Of a DNA stretch of 64,000 bases, positions 15,583 through 24,795 are shown in pieces (the first letter of the stretch is position 1; each line of letters begins with the position of its first letter). The stretch is taken from contig NZ_JBEPOC010000001.1 of assembly GCF_040546585.1 (NCBI RefSeq), positions 3,162,001 through 3,226,000 of the forward strand. The letters are read 5' to 3'. The position numbers were made by a program, and so were the translations under genes. The notes below the pieces were generated by a model, which was not told the DNA's origin, did no database searches, and saw only the letters and a program-made list of their open reading frames with translations. This stretch comes from Marmoricola sp. OAE513 (lineage in GTDB: Bacteria > Actinomycetota > Actinomycetes > Propionibacteriales > Nocardioidaceae).

Positions 15583-15979
15583 CGGGTTCTCGGCCGACCA
15601 GCGGTACGACATCGACCGAGCCATCCGGGCGGCCGAGACGGCCTGCCGCTACGAGTTCTCGCTCTACGTCGGTCCTGCCGAAGGCGCTTCGGCCGAGTTC
15701 GCCCAGCGGCTGCACGCGTCGCTGATCGCGCCGGGACGCAGCGTCCTGATCATGATCGACCCGGCCGCCCGGGTGCTCGAGATCGTCACCGGCTCCGTCG
15801 TGCGCCGGGTCCTGAACGACGACGCAGTCCGGCTCGCTGCTGCGGCGATGGAGTCGGCGTTCAGCCAGGGCGACCTCGTCGGTGGCATCAAGCGGGGGGT
15901 CAGCCAGCTGGCGGACGCTGCCCGCCAGCCGGCCACCCTGCACGCCTCTGGGCACGCCTCTGGACACGCCTCTAGCTAG
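15560..15979 (+). CDS. DUF5130 (TPM-like) protein
   Basis: The protein has 139 residues from GTG 15560; GTG 15569 is an alternative. The FSADQRYDIDRAIRAAETAC opening and the alpha/beta layout resemble TPM phosphatase-like domains. The counterpart of M. tuberculosis Rv2468c sits next to pepN there too. It has no signal peptide. The C-terminus is a short repeat HASGHASGHAS encoded by direct 12-bp repeats. The 3' end overlaps the convergent pepN stop by 8 bp. The biochemical role is unknown. Confidence 0.75.
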   Translation: MAPVASGDGFSADQRYDIDRAIRAAETACRYEFSLYVGPAEGASAEFAQRLHASLIAPGRSVLIMIDPAARVLEIVTGSVVRRVLNDDAVRLAAAAMESAFSQGDLVGGIKRGVSQLADAARQPATLHASGHASGHASS

Positions 15980-18521
15980 TCGCGGCGGCGTCCCTGGCCT
16001 GGCCGGCCAGGTAGCGGGCGACGTCCGCGCGTCCCTCGGCCACGTAGCGCTTCGCGCCCGGGTTCGCGCTGGTGCTCTCCAGCCACGCGTCGACCTCGTC
16101 CAGCAGCGCCTGCGACGCGGCCGGACGCGGGAACAGCGCCGCCAGCGCGGTGGACGCCTTGTGCGTACCGAGGTGCTCCCACATCGTCTCGACGGCCTCG
16201 AGGTACTTGGCCGTGTACGGCGCCAGCACCTCCTCCTGGCCGCTCGCCTGGAACGCGCCGACGATCGAGCGGTGCGTCTCGTTGGGGGTGTCGGCGTCGA
16301 GCACCGAGGCCTGCCACGCCTCCGCCTTCGCCTCCGCGGTCGGCTGGGCGGCCCGGGCCGCAGCGGCGTGCTCCTTGCCCGAGATCGTGTTGTCGGCCGC
16401 GAGCTCGGTCTCGATCCGGTCGCCGGCACGCCCGCGACGGGCCAGCGCGCTGATCAGCACCCAGCGCAGGTCCTGGTCGACGGCGAGGCCCTCGAAGGAG
16501 AGCTTCCCGTCGAGGATCTCCTCGAGGTCGGTCAGGGCCGCCTCGCTGCGCGCCGCGCCGGCGTACGAGCGGGCGAAGGTGAGCTGCTGGTCGCTCTCGG
16601 CGGCAGCCTCCTCCAGGAGGGCGCGAAGCCCACGCTCCCAGCGCTCCTGCAGCGCGGGCCGGTTCGCAGGCGCGGAGAAGGAGTTCGTCGCCTGGGCCGC
16701 GTAGTCCGGGATCCGGCTGATGCCCCAGGCGTCGGTCTCCGAGCCGATGTTGGCCAGGACCAGGTGCACGAAGTCGGTCGCGGTCATCTCGGCGTCCCGG
16801 GTCATGTCCCAGGCGGCTCCCCAGCACAGCGCGCGGGCGAGCGAGTCGTCGAGCTTGTCGAGACCCTCGACCACGGTCGCCAGCGAGCGCTCGTCGAGAC
16901 GGATCTTGGCGTACGCCAGGTCGGCGTCGTTGAGCAGCAGCAGGTCCGGCTGCTTCTTCCCGACCAGCTCGCTGATCGGCGTGGCGGGGCCCTCGACGTC
17001 GACCTCGAGGTACTCGCGGCGGACCAGGCGGCCGTCCTCGGTCAGGTCGTAGAGGCCGATGCCCAGGCGGTGGCGGCGCAGTGTCGGCCAGTCCGGGTCG
17101 GCGGTCTGCAGCACCGAGAAGGAGGAGTACGCGTCACCGTCGAGCTCGAAGGACGGGGTCAACGTGTTCACGCCGGCGGTCTGCAGCCACTCCGCGGCCC
17201 AACCCTGGAGCTCGCGGCCCGAGGACTTCTCGAGCGCGGCCAGCAGGTCGGCGAACTCGGGGTTCCCGTAGGCGAAGTCCTTGAAGTACTGGCGCAGTCC
17301 GGCCAGGAACGGCTCGAGCCCGACCCAGGCGACCAGCTGCTTGAGCACCGAGGCGCCCTTGGCGTAGGTGATCATGTCGAAGTTGACCTCGACGGCGTGC
17401 AGGTCGTAGTTGTCGGCTGCGATCGGGTGCGTGCTCGGCATCTGGTCCTGGCGGTACCCGGTCTGCTTGCGCGCGTTGGTGAAGCCGGTCCAGGCGTCGG
17501 TGAAGTCGGTGGCCTCCGCCTCGCACCAGTAGCAGGCCCACTCGGCGAAGGACTCGTTGAGCCAGAGGTCGTCCCACCACTTCATCGTGACCAGGTTGCC
17601 GAACCACATGTGCGCCATCTCGTGGGTGATCACCGAGGCGCGGAACTCGTAGAACGAGCGGGGCTGCCGGGAGCGGGGGAGGTACTCGTCGCGCAGCGTC
17701 ACGCAGCCGGCGTTCTCCATCGCGCCCATGTTGTACTCCGGCACGTAGAGCTGGTCGTACTTCTCGAACGGGTACGGGTAGTCGAACTGCTCCTCGAAGA
17801 ACGCGAAGCTCTGCTTGGTGATCTTGACCAGCTCGTCGCGGTCGAGGAACTCCACGAGCGACTGCCGGCAGTAGTGCCCGAGCGGGATCGTGCCGAACTT
17901 GCCCTCGTAGACGTCCTGCACCTCGTGGTACTCACCGGCCACCAGGGCGGTGATGTACGTCGACATCTTCTTCGTGGTCGGGAAGCGCCACACGGCCTTG
18001 CCGTCGGCGAGGGGCTCGGGCTCGGGGGTGACCTGGTTGGACACGACCGTCCAGTGCGCCGGAGCGGTGACGTGGAAGGTGAACACGCTCTTGAGGTCGG
18101 GCTGCTCGAAGGTGGTGTACACCCGACGCGCATCGGGGACCTCGAACTGGCTGTAGAGGTAGACGCGGTCGTCGACCGGGTCGACGAAGCGGTGCAGGCC
18201 CTCGCCGCTGTGGCTGTAGGTGCAGTCGGCGCGGACCACCAGCACGTTCTCGACGTGCAGGTTGTCCAGCTGGATCCGGCTGTCGGCGTACACCGCGGCG
18301 GGGTCGAGGGACTCTCCGTTGAGCGTGATCTCGTGGATCGTCGCGCCCACGAGGTCGGCGAAGGTGCTGCCGCCGGGGAGCGTGGAGGAGAAGGCGATGG
18401 TCGTGGTCGAGGCGAAGGTCTTCTCGCCGGTCGTCAGGTCGAGCTCGATGGTGTACGAGTCGACGTCGATGATCGTGGCGCGGGTCTGCGCCTCTTCGCG
18501 AGTCAGGTTTGTTCCAGGCAT
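15972..18521 (-). CDS. pepN: Aminopeptidase N, M1 family
   Basis: The protein has 849 residues, normal for actinobacterial PepN. The substrate-binding exopeptidase motif is NMGAMENAG. The zinc site is H300-E301-x-x-H304 in HEMAHMWFGN, with the third ligand Glu323 in WLNESFAEW. The enzyme removes N-terminal residues from peptides in the cytoplasm, completing the work of Clp proteases encoded further on. The start MPGTNLTREEAQTRA is at ATG 18521. It corresponds to Rv2467. It is divergent from the CHAP protein gene. Confidence 0.95.
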   Translation of the reverse strand: MPGTNLTREEAQTRATIIDVDSYTIELDLTTGEKTFASTTTIAFSSTLPGGSTFADLVGATIHEITLNGESLDPAAVYADSRIQLDNLHVENVLVVRADCTYSHSGEGLHRFVDPVDDRVYLYSQFEVPDARRVYTTFEQPDLKSVFTFHVTAPAHWTVVSNQVTPEPEPLADGKAVWRFPTTKKMSTYITALVAGEYHEVQDVYEGKFGTIPLGHYCRQSLVEFLDRDELVKITKQSFAFFEEQFDYPYPFEKYDQLYVPEYNMGAMENAGCVTLRDEYLPRSRQPRSFYEFRASVITHEMAHMWFGNLVTMKWWDDLWLNESFAEWACYWCEAEATDFTDAWTGFTNARKQTGYRQDQMPSTHPIAADNYDLHAVEVNFDMITYAKGASVLKQLVAWVGLEPFLAGLRQYFKDFAYGNPEFADLLAALEKSSGRELQGWAAEWLQTAGVNTLTPSFELDGDAYSSFSVLQTADPDWPTLRRHRLGIGLYDLTEDGRLVRREYLEVDVEGPATPISELVGKKQPDLLLLNDADLAYAKIRLDERSLATVVEGLDKLDDSLARALCWGAAWDMTRDAEMTATDFVHLVLANIGSETDAWGISRIPDYAAQATNSFSAPANRPALQERWERGLRALLEEAAAESDQQLTFARSYAGAARSEAALTDLEEILDGKLSFEGLAVDQDLRWVLISALARRGRAGDRIETELAADNTISGKEHAAAARAAQPTAEAKAEAWQASVLDADTPNETHRSIVGAFQASGQEEVLAPYTAKYLEAVETMWEHLGTHKASTALAALFPRPAASQALLDEVDAWLESTSANPGAKRYVAEGRADVARYLAGQARDAAATS

Positions 18522-18653: not shown

Positions 18654-20231
18654 GTGCAGACCCGTCGTTGGACCCGTCCTGGGCTCGTGATCGCCCTTCT
18701 CGGGCTGGTCGCGGGGCTCCTCCTGTCGCCCCCGCAGGCGCAGGCATCCTCGACGATCCTGTGCAAGGGCTTCACCGCGTGCGAGAAGGCCGGGTACAGC
18801 AGCTTCGGCTACGGGCCGAGCAACTACAAGAAGATGTGGTGGCGGATGTACTCCGGCCACAACTGCACCAACTACATGGCCTACCGGATGATCAAGGCCG
18901 GCATGCCGGTCGACCGTCCGTGGAAGGGCAGCGGCGACGCGCGCAACTGGGGCGTCGTCTTCAAGTCCAAGGTGAACCAGACGCCGATGATCGGCTCGGT
19001 CGCCTGGTGGAGCAGCAACCACGTCGCCTACGTGCAGCAGATCGTCGACGCGAACACGATCATCATCTCCGAGGACCACTACCGCGGAGACTTCGACTGG
19101 CGGAAGATCACCCGCGCCGGCGGTGGCTGGCCGACCGGGTTCATCCACCTCGTCGACGAGGCCGTCACCTCGACCGCGCCACCGACCATCACGGGGACGC
19201 CGAAGGTCGACCAGACCTTGACGGCGAAGCCCGGCACGTGGAACCGGGCGGGCGCGACGTACAAGTACCAGTGGCTGGCAGCGGGCAAGGCGATCGCCGG
19301 TGCGACCACGGCGACCTACCGGCCGACCGCCGCCCAGGTCGGCCAGACCTTCAGCGTCAAGGTCACCGCGTCCAAGGCCGGGTACAAGACCGGCACCCGT
19401 AACACCGCGGTGAGCAAGGCCACCGTCCCCGGGACGATGGCGGTCGACGGCGAGCCGGTGATCTCGGGGATCCCGAAGGTGGGCGCCACCCTGACCGCGT
19501 CGGTGCCGACGTTCGCGCCGGCCGCCGAGGGGATCCGCTACGGCTGGTTCGCCGACGGCCGGTTCATCCCGGGCGGCAGCGGGACCAGCATCACGCTGAA
19601 GCCGGAGCAGCTCGGCAAGGCGGTCCGCTTCGTCGCGACCGCGAACCGCACCGGGTACGACGCCGCCCCGGCAGCGAGCGCTCCCACCGTCGCAGTGCTC
19701 CCGGAGAAGCTCGCGGTCACCGCCGAGCCGCGGCTGGTCGGCAACGCGTACGTCGGGCGGGCCCTGACGGTCACGCCGGGAGCCGTCGCACCGAAGGCCG
19801 CCGAGACCTACCAGTGGCTGCGCGACGGCAAGCCGATCGCCGGCGCCACGAACGCGCGGTACGTCCCGAGCGCGCTGGACCCCGGCACGAGGCTCAGCGT
19901 CCGGGTGTCCTTCGCCCGCCCCGGCTACACCACGGTCGTCCGCGATCTCAAGATCAAGCGGGAGGTGCACGCGTTCGCCAAGATCGCCGTCGCCTCGCGC
20001 GCGCACCGCCAGGTGACGGTCGCGATCTACGCCACGGGTGTCACCGGCCCGCGCGGCACGGTCACCCTGCTCACCCGGAGCGGGAAGAAGATGACCCTGA
20101 CGCTGAAGAACGGCAAGGCGACGTTCGCGCCGTCCTGGCTGCACCAGGGTGAGCGCACCTTGACCGTCGTCTACTCGGGCTCCTCCAAGGTCCACGAGAA
20201 GACGACCACGCGGACCGTCGCGGTCAAGTGA
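18654..20231 (+). CDS. Secreted CHAP-domain cell-wall hydrolase with Ig-like repeats
   Basis: The protein has 525 residues. The signal peptide is GLVIALLGLVAGLLLS with a likely cut after QAQA (near residue 32). The CHAP domain spans about residues 35-165: catalytic Cys in GHNCTNYMAY and His in SSNHVAYV. Two repeats of the type TITGTPKVDQTLTAKPGTW ... YQWLAAGKAIAGAT (about residues 175-260 and 360-430) and a divergent one between them are surface Ig-like modules. A final beta domain (TVTLLTRSGKKMTLTL) ends the protein. CHAP amidases cut peptidoglycan peptides. It ends in an 8-bp convergent overlap with the exporter gene. Confidence 0.85.
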   Translation: MQTRRWTRPGLVIALLGLVAGLLLSPPQAQASSTILCKGFTACEKAGYSSFGYGPSNYKKMWWRMYSGHNCTNYMAYRMIKAGMPVDRPWKGSGDARNWGVVFKSKVNQTPMIGSVAWWSSNHVAYVQQIVDANTIIISEDHYRGDFDWRKITRAGGGWPTGFIHLVDEAVTSTAPPTITGTPKVDQTLTAKPGTWNRAGATYKYQWLAAGKAIAGATTATYRPTAAQVGQTFSVKVTASKAGYKTGTRNTAVSKATVPGTMAVDGEPVISGIPKVGATLTASVPTFAPAAEGIRYGWFADGRFIPGGSGTSITLKPEQLGKAVRFVATANRTGYDAAPAASAPTVAVLPEKLAVTAEPRLVGNAYVGRALTVTPGAVAPKAAETYQWLRDGKPIAGATNARYVPSALDPGTRLSVRVSFARPGYTTVVRDLKIKREVHAFAKIAVASRAHRQVTVAIYATGVTGPRGTVTLLTRSGKKMTLTLKNGKATFAPSWLHQGERTLTVVYSGSSKVHEKTTTRTVAVK

Positions 20232-22911
20232 TCTGGTTGCCCGCGAGCTCGAAGTAGAGACCGCGGCGCTCGAGCAGGTCGGCGTGCCGCCCGCGCTCGA
20301 CGATCCGACCGCCGTCGAGGACCAGGATCTGGTCGGCGTCGCGCACGGTGGACAGCCGGTGAGCGACCACGAACACCGTGCGGTCGACGAAGGCGGCCCG
20401 CAGGCTCGCCTGCAGCTGCGTCTCGGACTCCGCGTCCAGCGCGCTGGTCGCCTCGTCGAGCAGCAGCACCTGAGGGTCGCGGTACAGCGCACGGGCGATG
20501 CAGATCCGCTGGCGTTCACCGCCCGAGAGCCGGGTGCCGCGCTCGCCGACCCGGGTCTCGTAGCCCAGGGGCATCCGGCGTACGAAGTCGTCGGCGGTGG
20601 CCGTGCGCGCTGCCCGGACGACACGGTCCAGGTCGATCTCGTCCTCGCCGAACGCGATGTTCTCCGCGACGGTGCCGTCGAAGAGGTGGCTGTCCTGCAG
20701 CACCACCCCGAGCCGGCGGCGGTAGGCCCGCAGGTCGACCTCGGCCAGGTCGACGCCGTCGGAGGTGATCCTGCCCGTGACCGGACGCAGCAGGGCGGCG
20801 ATGAGGAGCAGCAGGGTCGACTTGCCGGCGCCGGAGCGTCCGACGATCGCGACCGTCTCGCCGGGTTCGGCCTGGATCGAGATGTCGTCGAGGACCAGCC
20901 GGTCGACCGCACCGGGGTGCCGGAACCCGACGCGGTCGAGCCGCACCCGCCCCTGCGGTTCCGGTGGGGTGGTGCCGGTGCCCTCGACCTGCTCCGGCTC
21001 GTGGTCGACGAACTCGCCGAGCCGGTCGAGCAGGACGCGGCCCTGCTGCCACACGTCCCAGGTGCCCAGCAGCAGGGTGAGGGGTGCGCTGGTCACCATG
21101 ACCAGGGAGAGGAACGGCACGAACTCGCTGATCGGGATGTTGCCCTCGACGACCTGGTAGGACCCGAAGCTGATCGCCAGCGACAGCGGGATCAGACCGA
21201 CGACGGCCAGCGCGCCCTCGTAGAGCATGATCGTGAGATCCGCGCTGAACAGCCGGCCGGAGAGGTCGTCGAACTGGGCGGCGAGCCGGCGCTGCAGCTG
21301 CTTCTCCGAACCGGCCGCCTTGACGGTGTCGATCCCGCGGATGGCATCGATCTGCCGCGACTTGTAGCGGCCCCAGGACTCCTCGAGGCTCTGGAACGCC
21401 GGTCGCAGCTTCCGGCGCGAGACGTACATCAGCACGAGGTAGAGCGGGACCACCGCCAGGTACACCGCAGGCAGGCGCACGTCCCAGGTCGCCATGATCA
21501 CCCAGGCGCCGATCACCTGGAACAGGGCGACGAACGCGCCGACGCCCCGGACCAGGAAGAAGCTGCGGACCTCGCGCAACCCGTTGAGCCGGCGCTCGAC
21601 GTCCCCGGTGCGTCGGTTGGCGAAGAACCCGATCGGGAGGGCGAGGAGGGTCTCGGCGACCTTGTCGAGACTGGCCCGGTCGATCCGCAGTGCTGCCCGG
21701 GTGACCGTGTAGCGCTGCAGCACCGTGAGGGCGGCGGACAGGCCGAGCACCCCGAGGACGATCGCCATCACCGGGAGCAGCGACCCGGTGTCCTGCCCCT
21801 GGATGACGTTCTCGATCACCCACTTGCTCGACAGCGGGATGGCCAGGCTCGTCGCGGCGATCCCGATGCCGGACAGCGTGGCGACGACGATCGCCGGCCA
21901 CTCGGCGCGCAGGAACGGACGGAAGAAGGGGCCACCGGAGGACGCGACCGGGGTGTCCGCCAGCGCCTCGGTGGGAGCGACCAGCAGGGCGTAGCCGGTG
22001 AAGCGCTCCTCGAACTCCGTGCGGGTCAGGAACCCCGAGACCCCGACCGGGTCCATCACGCGGACCTCGCGGGCGCCGACCTTGTCGAGCACGACCCAGT
22101 GGTTGCCGTCGACGTGGCACAGGGCGGGGAGTGGCAGCTCGTCGAGCCGGGACGTCGAGACCGTGGTCATCGCGGAGGTCAGCCCCAGGTGCTGGGCCCC
22201 GCGGTGCAGACCGAGCAGGCTGGTGCCGTCGGAGGCGGTCGAGACCGCCTCCCGGACGGCGACCATGCTGACCGGGTGGCCGAAGCTGCGGCAGATCGCG
22301 GTCAGGGCGGCGGCTCCGCAGTCCATCTCGTCGAGCCCGAAGACCTGGGGGACCTTGGCGGTCCGGCCGCGGCTGCGGAAGGCGGACCAGTCCGCGGCCG
22401 GGAGCTCGACCGGTACGGCGTCGCGGGGCACCGGGGCAGGGGCTGGGGGGAGCGGCGGCGCGGGGGAGCGTCGCTTCGCGCGCGGCGTGGGGCGTGCGAG
22501 CGTCGAGGAGCGGAACAGCGTGGCGGTCGGCTCCCAGAGGTCGATCAGACCCCGCGCCACCGAGCCGTGCAGCGTCAGGGTCTGCAACGGTCCCGTGGCC
22601 CGCACGCTGACCGCGGCGCGGTCCTCGGCCGCTGCCTCCGGCCCGATCAGGTCGCCGGGCCCCAGGGTCCGGACCTGCACCTCGGACCCGTCGTGGCCGC
22701 GCGCCGTCGCGCGGGCGGTGCCGCGGACCACCACGTGCACGACGTCGGGCACCTCGCCCTCGGTGACCAGCTCGTCACCGAGGACGTGCTCGGCCGCGTC
22801 GAGCGAGCCCGCCACCAGGCGGCGTACCTCGAACGGGGCGTCGTCGAGGGCGAGCAGGCCGACGGGGAGTCGGTCGGCCCGCGCGGTCCTCGTGCTCTGT
22901 GATGGCTCCAT
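20224..22911 (-). CDS. C39-peptidase ABC exporter with N-terminal cyclic-nucleotide-binding-like domain
   Basis: The protein has 895 residues. Residues about 25-125 resemble a cNMP-binding domain (VVHVVVRGTARA, then LGPGDLIGPEA). A Pro-rich linker follows. The C39 peptidase spans about 185-310, with Cys198 in LDEMDCGAAALTA, His in GNHWVVLD and Asp in VMDPVG. The usual oxyanion-hole Gln six residues before the Cys is Gly here. Next come about six membrane helices and an ATPase with GRSGAGKST, LSGGERQRICIA and VLLLDEATSALD. Such exporters cleave double-glycine leaders and secrete the peptide. The domain order is known from HetC-type transporters. Seven bp separate it from the maturation gene. 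Confidence 0.9.
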   Translation of the reverse strand: MEPSQSTRTARADRLPVGLLALDDAPFEVRRLVAGSLDAAEHVLGDELVTEGEVPDVVHVVVRGTARATARGHDGSEVQVRTLGPGDLIGPEAAAEDRAAVSVRATGPLQTLTLHGSVARGLIDLWEPTATLFRSSTLARPTPRAKRRSPAPPLPPAPAPVPRDAVPVELPAADWSAFRSRGRTAKVPQVFGLDEMDCGAAALTAICRSFGHPVSMVAVREAVSTASDGTSLLGLHRGAQHLGLTSAMTTVSTSRLDELPLPALCHVDGNHWVVLDKVGAREVRVMDPVGVSGFLTRTEFEERFTGYALLVAPTEALADTPVASSGGPFFRPFLRAEWPAIVVATLSGIGIAATSLAIPLSSKWVIENVIQGQDTGSLLPVMAIVLGVLGLSAALTVLQRYTVTRAALRIDRASLDKVAETLLALPIGFFANRRTGDVERRLNGLREVRSFFLVRGVGAFVALFQVIGAWVIMATWDVRLPAVYLAVVPLYLVLMYVSRRKLRPAFQSLEESWGRYKSRQIDAIRGIDTVKAAGSEKQLQRRLAAQFDDLSGRLFSADLTIMLYEGALAVVGLIPLSLAISFGSYQVVEGNIPISEFVPFLSLVMVTSAPLTLLLGTWDVWQQGRVLLDRLGEFVDHEPEQVEGTGTTPPEPQGRVRLDRVGFRHPGAVDRLVLDDISIQAEPGETVAIVGRSGAGKSTLLLLIAALLRPVTGRITSDGVDLAEVDLRAYRRRLGVVLQDSHLFDGTVAENIAFGEDEIDLDRVVRAARTATADDFVRRMPLGYETRVGERGTRLSGGERQRICIARALYRDPQVLLLDEATSALDAESETQLQASLRAAFVDRTVFVVAHRLSTVRDADQILVLDGGRIVERGRHADLLERRGLYFELAGNQIT

Positions 22912-22918
22912 CGCGCGC

Positions 22919-23767
22919 TCAGGCTACGACGTGACGCGCGACTGCGCCGGAGATCACCTCGGCGCGGACGACCGCCTCGGCACGTGCCCGGCTGCCGGGT
23001 TCCTCGGGGCTCGGGTCGGTGCGGGACACGACGTGCAGCAGGCACCACCCGTCGCCGGCGGGCACGGGGCCGAGGAGCTCCCCGGGCAGGGCCCCGGCCA
23101 GCGCGGCCCGTACGGCGGGTGCGCCGATCCGGCTGAGCACGTCGTCGACCTGGCGCACCGGGAGCGCGGCTGCTGCTGCAGCGTCGGCGAGCGGGAGGCC
23201 GTCGTGCAGCACCTGGTGCCGCAGCTCCTCGGCGACCGCGCGGGAGGTGGTCTCCACGACGTGCGCGACCAGGCGGGTCCAGTCGAGGCGGTGCGCCGCG
23301 ACGACGGCCCCCACCGCGGCGTCGGTGGTGCGGGTGGTCGCCAGGCGCTCGACCCACCCGTCCGGCTCGAAGGTGGCGGCGTCGACCGGCCCGGCGCCCA
23401 GGGCGCACGCCGCGGCCGCCGCGCTGAGCAGCTCGGCGCTGGTGGCCTCGAGGTCGCCGGAGCACACGAAGGCGCACCACGGGCTCGCGGTCGTCGTACC
23501 GGCGCAGGCATCGGCGCACCACCGGCGGAAGTCGTCGGGGTCGATCTCCCACGTGGCCAGCCAGGCGTCGAGCCGGTCCGCCGTGAGCAGGCCGCGGCTG
23601 CGGCGGAAGCCCTCCTCGGCCTCGACCGGGGAGCCGAAAAGCGCTTCACGGCCCCCGGGCCTCGCACGTCGTGCGAGGTCGGAGACCGTGAAGACGACGC
23701 CGTCCGCCGCGAAGACGCGGCGTGCGGCGAGAGATGCAGGAGCGTCAGGGAGGGAGACGCCCGTCAT
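22919..23767 (-). CDS. Putative peptide-maturation (parvulin/SurA-like) protein
   Basis: The protein has 282 residues and no signal peptide. The N-terminal segment GFRRSRGLLTADRLDAWLAT resembles the helical segment of SurA/parvulin-like proteins that accompany C39 exporters. The middle is helical and Ala-rich. The end, GWCLLHVVSRTDPSPEEPGS then RARAEAVVRAEV, looks like a decayed parvulin domain. This family assignment is by pattern memory only. It lies between the precursor gene (22 bp upstream) and the exporter gene (7 bp downstream), so a role in holding or folding the precursor is inferred. Confidence 0.55.
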   Translation of the reverse strand: MTGVSLPDAPASLAARRVFAADGVVFTVSDLARRARPGGREALFGSPVEAEEGFRRSRGLLTADRLDAWLATWEIDPDDFRRWCADACAGTTTASPWCAFVCSGDLEATSAELLSAAAAACALGAGPVDAATFEPDGWVERLATTRTTDAAVGAVVAAHRLDWTRLVAHVVETTSRAVAEELRHQVLHDGLPLADAAAAAALPVRQVDDVLSRIGAPAVRAALAGALPGELLGPVPAGDGWCLLHVVSRTDPSPEEPGSRARAEAVVRAEVISGAVARHVVA

Positions 23768-23789
23768 CGTGGTGGGTCTGCTCGGGCAA

Positions 23790-23933
23790 TCAGTCGATGT
23801 GCAGGCCGAGAACGGCCGTGATGCCGCCGACGAGCGCGATGACCGCGGGGCCGAGGTCGAGGAAAGCTGCTCCGCCGACGACGCCGGCAGCGTCGGTCTC
23901 GGTGGGGGCCAGGTCAGTGAAGGTGCTGTTCAT
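23790..23933 (-). CDS. Candidate double-glycine precursor peptide
   Basis: The peptide has 47 residues. ATG 23933 is preceded by GGGA 7 nt upstream; a longer in-frame extension to 24014 has no such signal. The N-terminal part, MNSTFTDLAPTETDAAGVVGG, is polar and acidic and ends in GG at residues 20-21. The C-terminal part AAFLDLGPAVIALVGG then ITAVLGLHID is hydrophobic and Gly-containing. This is the layout of peptides cleaved by C39 exporters. It has no Cys and a single Ser, so lanthionine or disulfide chemistry is excluded. A second GG at residues 36-37 is an alternative cut. Confidence 0.65.
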   Translation of the reverse strand: MNSTFTDLAPTETDAAGVVGGAAFLDLGPAVIALVGGITAVLGLHID

Positions 23934-24180
23934 GTCGTGTCCCGATCTGTTGCGCCCCGGTGGGAAGCCCGAGGCTGGTGGTTTATTTGTAGGCCCGTCC
24001 GGGGCGTATTTCAACGCATCCGGGGTGTGGCTGGGTTACGACTTTGTTGCCGCGGAGCGAACTGTTCGGCTTGTCCTGGTTTGGGCGGCGTCGCGTGCGT
24101 CACACCCGCGCCGGTCGGCGAGGTAGTGCCCGGGGAATGCCCGGGGGGAATAGAGCCCGGCCGGGAGAGGTTCGCCCGAC
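23934..24180. other. Promoter-bearing gap between the peptide cassette and the DsbA gene
   Basis: 247 bp between divergent genes. It is locally AT-richer than its surroundings (GGTTTATTTGTAGG near 23980 and TATTTCAACGCATC near 24008), as expected for promoters. I see no clear operator or hairpin. It must contain the cassette promoter. Confidence 0.4.
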
Positions 24181-24795
24181 ATGACGACTCCTGCCGCAGG
24201 CACCGCTGACTTCTGGTTCGACCCGCTCTGCCCGTTCGCGTGGATCACCTCGCGGTGGATCCTCGAGGTCGAGCAGGTCCGCGACATCGAGGTCAAGTGG
24301 CACGTGATGAGCCTGGCCTACCTGAACAAGGACAAGGACATCCCGGCCGAGTACCGCGAGCTGCTCGCGCCGGCGTGGGGACCCGTCCGGGTGCTGATCG
24401 CGGCGTCGGCCAAGCACGGCGACGAGGTGCTCTTCCCGCTGTACAACGCGTTCGGCACCCGCATCCACCACGGCAAGCAGCCGATCGACCGGAAGCTGGT
24501 CACCGAGGTGCTCGCCGAGGTCGGTCTGGAGCCCGAGCTGGCGGACGCGATGGACGACTCCTCCCTCGACGAGGCGGTCGCGAAGTCGCACCACGAGGGG
24601 ATGGACCAGGTCGGTGACGACGTCGGTACTCCGACGATCGCGATCAACGGCGTCGCGTTCTTCGGGCCGGTGCTGTCCTCGATCCCGCGGGGCGAGGAAG
24701 CCGGCAAGCTCTGGGACGGGGCGGTCGCGCTGGCGTCGTACCCCGACTTCTACGAGCTGAAGCGGACGCGGACGGGGAGCCTGGACTTCAGCTGA
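24181..24795 (+). CDS. DsbA-family thioredoxin-fold protein, Rv2466c type, single-cysteine active site
   Basis: The protein has 204 residues and no signal peptide. The sequence follows the mycothiol-dependent nitroreductase Rv2466c closely ([51 protein letters not shown]). The active site is CPFA instead of CPWC, so the resolving Cys is missing and only Cys19 remains. The family reduces via mycothiol and one catalytic Cys can suffice for that. The cis-Pro GTPT is present. GGGAGAGG lies upstream of ATG 24181. It is divergent from the peptide cassette and convergent with the CotH gene. Confidence 0.85.

Follow-up and report, generated by a model that had tools for sequence, protein, structure and literature searches.

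A probable secretion cassette for small double-glycine peptides in Marmoricola sp. OAE513, and its likeness to cyanobacterial bacteriocin clusters

Three genes are packed head to tail on the minus strand at positions 20224–23933 of the window (the whole 64,000-nt stretch of Marmoricola sp. OAE513 DNA analysed here), and the question they raise is whether so small a set makes up a working peptide-export unit and, if so, of which kind. Our analysis points to a cassette devoted to the secretion of small peptides of the double-glycine type, probably an actinobacterial, HlyD-less counterpart of the cyanobacterial group I bacteriocin clusters. Such a cassette would extend to actinobacteria a peptide-export architecture known from cyanobacteria, in the form of a tiny and testable gene set.

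The cassette, its precursor peptide and its possible use

The trio encodes a precursor peptide, a SurA/parvulin-like protein and an exporter joining a cyclic-nucleotide-binding (CNB)-like domain to C39 peptidase and ABC transporter parts, with spacers of 22 and 7 bp; coordinates and gaps are exactly those given by an earlier, sequence-only reading of this DNA. The three-gene cassette is confirmed as real, and the locus comprises the following features:

15972–18521, minus strand: pepN, the left flank of the locus
18654–20231, plus strand: gene for a CHAP-domain protein, a neighbour outside the cassette
20224–22911, minus strand: exporter, 895 aa; CNB-like domain at 45–117, C39 domain at about 186–315 (C198, H271, D287), then ABC membrane part and ATPase
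22919–23767, minus strand: middle protein, 282 aa, SurA/PrsA-like; predicted parvulin fold at about 160–255; distant relative of TIGR04500/MirC
23790–23933, minus strand: 47-aa double-glycine precursor; leader 1–21, core 22–47, ending in HID
23954–23975, minus strand: stem-loop (7 bp) of the 5' leader that precedes the precursor gene
24181–24795, plus strand: DsbA-like gene (the Rv2466c homologue of the sequence-only reading), bordering the insertion on the right in the window genome

The precursor (MNSTFTDLAPTETDAAGVVGG as leader, AAFLDLGPAVIALVGGITAVLGLHID as core) is a real gene. It has the 47 residues and the GG at residues 20–21 that had been read from it, followed by a hydrophobic, acidic core of roughly 26 residues; its composition had been miscounted as one Ser and two Thr, all outside the core, when the peptide in fact has five Thr, T38 being the sole one in the core, and a single Ser, and lacks Cys. 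Nine copies of the precursor share the leader FxDLxPT..A..VGG (in full, FxDLxPTxxxAxxVxGG) and a final Asp, with F5, D7, L8, P10, T11, A15, V19, G20, G21, P29, G36 and that Asp invariant in all nine. Among the six first-position linked precursors, pN was below pS in 15/15 pairs (for the core only narrowly in some pairs; the pairs are not independent and the values carry no correction for saturation), and the precursor thus evolves under purifying selection. One copy stands apart: the second tandem precursor of genome G006 (L019:10217-10342, minus strand) has two core Cys (PCAWADFPLCVLGTTITAFLHID), in which the other eight differ, and a disulfide is possible there.

No Pfam or NCBIfam model matched the precursor, and the open-access literature searched held no description of the family, which is a small one: beyond the rosaritide paper no such peptide family in actinobacteria was found there, nor anything on Marmoricola double-glycine peptides, on actinobacterial C39 proteins with SurA, or on Nocardioidaceae RiPPs with a PCAT. 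The earlier suggestion of an undescribed secreted-peptide family therefore holds for the conserved peptides but not for the type of system, since (i) the same three components occur in cyanobacterial bacteriocin groups I and II (PMC3140520), and (ii) a relative of the middle protein, MirC, has been characterised in graspetide synthesis (PMC13097080). By Pfam, no known modifying enzyme is present among the cassette genes; a thioether RiPP was rejected on this ground, as it had been in the sequence-only reading, and the peptide would most likely leave the cell unmodified and linear.

As we envisage export, the leader would be recognised by the middle protein, which as a chaperone would keep the hydrophobic core soluble and pass it to the exporter. 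The C39 domain would then cut after the GG, and the ABC part would move the core of some 26 residues out of the cell, as the domains of the exporter suggest. The weakest step concerns what the peptide is for: peptide signalling or a surface-community behaviour is most likely, because the cassette has no room for an immunity gene. A variant of the same secretion-cassette explanation, rather than an alternative to it, would have the exported peptide act as a bacteriocin, and to this we give a substantial minority chance. A hydrophobic core behind a GG leader would suit such a product, as would a core more variable than the leader, and the cyanobacterial clusters were named as bacteriocin clusters (PMC3140520); however, exporter and precursor leave no space between them for an immunity gene in six genomes, the core is acidic, and the characterised cyanobacterial relatives act in biofilm formation (PMC4997328) or cell differentiation (PMC10986499).

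The exporter and its cyanobacterial relatives

Pfam assigns to the exporter a C39 domain (E 5.2e-26), cNMP_binding at 45–117 (E 4.9e-9), ABC_membrane and ABC_tran, and finds the same four families in 6/6 orthologous exporters. Together with alignment of the catalytic triad, this bears out the earlier claim of an exporter that keeps Cys198, His and Asp of C39 and carries a CNB-like domain. The C39 part aligns with the C39 domains of PCAT1, ComA and LahT; Cys198 and His271 are present in all six exporters, and Asp287 in five, with Asn in one. Beside Cys, His and Asp, active C39 peptidases use a Gln as oxyanion residue. At that position all six cassette exporters have Gly or Ala, as against Gln in 9/9 actinobacterial graspetide PCATs (those picked up by a single pattern) and in three C39 exporters from cyanobacteria, so that cleavage, which we infer, could be weak.

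This substitution, which sets the exporters apart from related ones, and the Asn replacing the catalytic Asp in one orthologue would also be expected of a degenerate docking domain, the peptide being exported uncut or cut by another protease. We consider this unlikely given that Cys and His are invariant in 6/6 exporters and GG in 9/9 precursors, and that an upstream Gln (Q189), present in 5/6 exporters, might substitute for the missing residue.

Ligands of cNMP domains are held by a Glu and an Arg of the phosphate-binding cassette. The CNB domain of the exporter aligns with PKA regulatory subunits (phmmer), but with neither of these residues in register, even though its Pfam cNMP_binding match exceeds the cut-off of that family. 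HetC of Nostoc PCC 7120 has the same CNB-C39-ABC architecture, and its CNB domain is protected by GDP, by GTP and most of all by ppGpp, but not by cAMP (PMC10986499). By analogy, the CNB-like domain of the cassette exporter might gate export on a ligand. The two systems differ in that HetC binds ppGpp in vitro and has a substrate not yet established (PMC10986499), whereas the precursor of the cassette is evident. Across the class, a CNB-C39 profile matched 61 of 383 sampled genomes (five candidates scored per genome); among the matches listed, all but that of the window genome start at model position 96 or later, and so cover essentially C39 only, and the window genome is the sole cassette carrier among the matches.

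In the survey by Wang et al. 2011, a long-type CAP_ED-C39-ABC exporter together with SurA defines cyanobacterial groups I, II and VI, and HlyD occurs in every group (PMC3140520). The cassette is like group I (and II) in its GG precursor, its SurA-like, rotamase-related protein and its long-type CNB(CAP_ED)-C39-ABC exporter (PMC3140520); it is unlike the cyanobacterial groups in being without HlyD, in belonging to another phylum, and in the shorter N-terminal part and different oxyanion residue of its exporter. By Pfam, HlyD is absent from the four ORFs that occupy all of the DNA between pepN and the DsbA-like gene, and a host without an outer membrane would presumably not need it. The cassette would thus function as a group I cluster does, but for want of HlyD it is not a member in the strict sense.

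The two long-type exporters examined from cyanobacteria, plasmid-encoded proteins of 1026 aa whose genes adjoin those for HlyD and a peptidylprolyl isomerase, show all four Pfam families, cNMP_binding included, in the order found here; cNMP_binding is missing from the single actinobacterial PCAT of graspetide type that was examined. Compared pairwise with one representative of each type, and aligning over the C39-ABC part only, the window exporter reached 377 bits with the long type of Tolypothrix and 293 with the graspetide PCAT. Its CNB part remained unaligned in the comparison with Tolypothrix, where the exporter has a longer N-terminal part (its C39 Cys is residue 324, versus 198 here), and this alignment thus gives no support to a common descent of the CNB fusion. 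Moreover, a plasmid search gave 367 bits for a short-type exporter of Leptolyngbya and 308–327 bits for the long type, with several proteobacterial exporters equal to or above the latter; since equal scores are reached by other types of exporter, the window protein cannot be assigned to the long type by its C39-ABC core alone. The exporter also misses the curated TIGR03796 cut-off.

The middle protein and graspetide-type partners

With 24.5 bits against Pfam Rotamase_2, the middle protein falls just under the gathering score of 27, and its predicted model matches parvulin, SurA and PrsA folds, in keeping with its earlier description as resembling parvulin-like helpers. Parvulin PPIase catalysis relies on conserved active-site His residues; where the cyanobacterial proteins have the His of their GxH strand, the middle protein has a Cys, at a position that is variable among orthologues. 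Against TIGR04500, the family of MirC, it scored 35.7 bits (31.6 and 27.4 for two orthologues), where the curated cut-off is 180. Profile comparison by hhalign gave 89% and E 2e-6 with the cyanobacterial cluster rotamases, and 97.9% and E 6e-13 with the TIGR04500 set over aligned positions 90–319 only, placing the protein nearer to the latter, whose profile is the deeper one. The best NCBIfam match of 4/4 cyanobacterial cluster rotamases is itself TIGR04500, below cut-off and without the first 100 or so positions, and the match of the middle protein is similarly without the N-terminal positions. As judged from these profiles, the middle protein is a distant relative both of MirC and of the cyanobacterial cluster rotamases. 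Matches to TIGR04500 under the cut-off also arose in Synechococcus elongatus, a control genome, and as TIGR04500 searches at E ≤ 1e-6 miss the window protein, further relatives as remote as this one may have gone unseen among the genomes sampled.

Rosaritide MirABCD likewise unites a precursor, a PpiC/SurA-related partner and a PCAT in an actinobacterium (PMC13097080; TIGR04187, TIGR04500, TIGR03796). Unlike MirABCD, the cassette is without an ATP-grasp synthetase and without the MirC N-domain (residues 1–90), and its exporter has a CNB-like domain. That N-domain is reported to be essential for cross-linking (PMC13097080), and the same paper sees no PPIase-like fold in MirC (PMC13097080), whereas the model of the middle protein is predicted to have one.

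With no ATP-grasp synthetase near and the MirC N-domain missing, a graspetide cluster was rejected as the identity of the cassette, and we kept it as a rival in another form, namely a reduced or split graspetide (RiPP) cluster whose MirC-type partner would act on a core cross-linked by a synthetase encoded elsewhere. The relatedness of the middle protein to TIGR04500/MirC would fit, as would the ATP-grasp gene that adjoins 19/21 examined actinobacterial TIGR04500 matches, the hydrophobic-x-[DE]-[LI] start plus GG often seen in precursors of TIGR04500 loci (features that the search pattern required), and the C-terminal Asp invariant in 9/9 cores. Yet 5/6 carriers lack a TIGR04187-like gene at E ≤ 1e-6, and the sole TIGR04187-like ATP-grasp match among carriers (G005:C2:1158750-1159478) lies ~385 kb from the cassette. 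The MirC N-domain has no counterpart in the middle protein, the donor Ser, Thr and Lys positions vary among the cores, and the cyanobacterial cluster rotamases, too, match TIGR04500 without the N-domain. We therefore regard a split graspetide cluster as improbable, and return to the secretion cassette as the preferred reading; its middle protein suggests that partners of the SurA/MirC type may take part in export where no graspetide synthetase is present, a point that matters for the role of such proteins.

Several other loci are of note. At L165, two tandem graspetide-type sets (ATP-grasp, TIGR04500 and precursor) lie beside one C39 exporter. At L169 and L170, short TIGR04500-like proteins adjoin pyruvate dehydrogenase-like genes; neither a nearby ATP-grasp match nor an exporter match was found there. 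Six actinobacterial loci that encode other C39 exporters (L196-L201) showed no SurA-like gene when the start of each predicted ORF was inspected by eye.

Distribution, locus history and unlinked precursors

The middle gene is present in 6/24 genomes of the genus, the five further orthologues having 54–59% identity. Its single-protein query found no relative in a first scan of genome contigs and, by tblastn, no match in plasmids. Among 341 genomes of the family it gave, beyond the carriers, eight weak matches (E 1.9e-4 to 9.6e-3) that we judged to be chance, and its profile matched 2/391 sampled genomes of the order, both in this genus; in these genome searches the best few candidates per genome were scored. 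In each of the five other carriers a precursor lies directly upstream of the middle gene (two in tandem in G006), and the precursor profile reached E < 1e-8 in the same six of the 341 family genomes only. The other 335 yielded no comparable match among the best few candidates scored per genome, the best being E 9.1e-4 within a 712-aa frame. A conserved small ORF beside homologous exporters, which the sequence-only reading had proposed looking for, is thus present in all six carriers of the middle gene, where all three genes co-occur, and the GG position is kept in 9/9 precursors. High-GC DNA such as this is rich in small ORFs, but a sequence and place kept in six carriers, with no comparable match elsewhere in the family and pN below pS in every pair, leave a chance ORF next to no probability. 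In G005 the stretch from the precursor stop to the conserved start region of the middle gene (L016:9607-10428) contains no ATG, GTG or TTG; a CTG start or coupled translation is perhaps used.

The locus was compared in 11 of the 24 genus genomes, i.e., the six carriers and five others. pepN adjoins the DsbA-like gene in G003 and G009; pepN, the CHAP gene and the DsbA-like gene, with no cassette, occur in G007, G011 and G018; the cassette lies between the CHAP and DsbA-like genes in the window genome, G005, G013, G017 and G020, and beyond the DsbA-like gene, on its other side, in G006. These variants show the cassette to be a presence/absence unit to which the CHAP gene does not belong, so that the earlier view of cassette and CHAP gene as inserted between pepN and the Rv2466c homologue stands for the former and not for the latter. 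The CHAP protein is ruled out as a cassette part, as its gene adjoins the DsbA-like gene in the three cassette-less genomes named above; other parts of the genus hold more distant CHAP-like matches. A tree built for the DsbA-like protein with sequences from 23 genomes unites the nine that have CHAP at the locus in one clade (support 100/99), within which carriers and non-carriers are not separated; the tree takes three changes, one also being compatible. A single gain followed by plain descent is unsupported by this tree, on which losses and repeated gains are indistinguishable.

Two precursors lie away from any cassette: one in the window genome (C1:3379405-3379515; L109:9406-9516, minus strand; MTNNFRDLQPTETDATGIVGG/SFLGFGPTVVPLPGGASITLFGNVD) and one in G020 (C4:399201-399308; L110:9202-9309, plus strand). 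Their contexts differ, and no exporter was seen among the ORFs around them. By eye, the first lies downstream of a molybdopterin oxidoreductase-like ORF, and the second is flanked by genes unrelated to the cassette. A leader-only profile recovered from the 24 genus genomes the same nine precursors and two weak matches (E 0.056). Given two genomes with an unlinked precursor, several peptides may depend on a single exporter acting in trans, which the unlinked precursors would use by virtue of the same leader. In Synechococcus elongatus, micropeptides are secreted via a C39 exporter and act in biofilms (PMC4997328), and EbfG1-4/PteB of that organism resemble the present case in pairing several GG micropeptides with one C39 exporter; unlike here, where one precursor is at an unlinked locus, the EbfG genes are clustered and have a biofilm role (PMC4997328). 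The cassette thereby adds a family of hydrophobic peptides, some of them orphan precursors that would escape mining by gene cluster.

A stem of 6–7 bp lies 16–52 nt upstream of the start in 8/8 lead or stand-alone precursors, and in the G006 tandem the second precursor is preceded by no stem longer than 5 bp. As controls, stems of at least 6 bp were found in 20/132 upstream regions of other predicted genes (from eight of the sequences) and at 1037/5000 random window positions; because the precursor sequences are related, the eight stems represent conservation and not eight independent events. A MAFFT alignment of the 5' leaders misplaced two of the stems. As a tentative extension, which we hold to be possible but doubtful, one Marmoricola-like clade might possess nucleotide-gated peptide signalling, in which one CNB-C39 exporter and a parvulin-fold pseudo-isomerase would serve dispersed precursors, in the cassette and at unlinked loci, bearing a common leader, a C-terminal Asp and a co-regulating 5' stem-loop.

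Further upstream of the linked precursors (about 23986–24050 in the window), conservation extends to a motif resembling AACGTAAC, which reads GTCGTAAC in the window, and to a stretch resembling CCTACAAA, possibly a promoter or operator.
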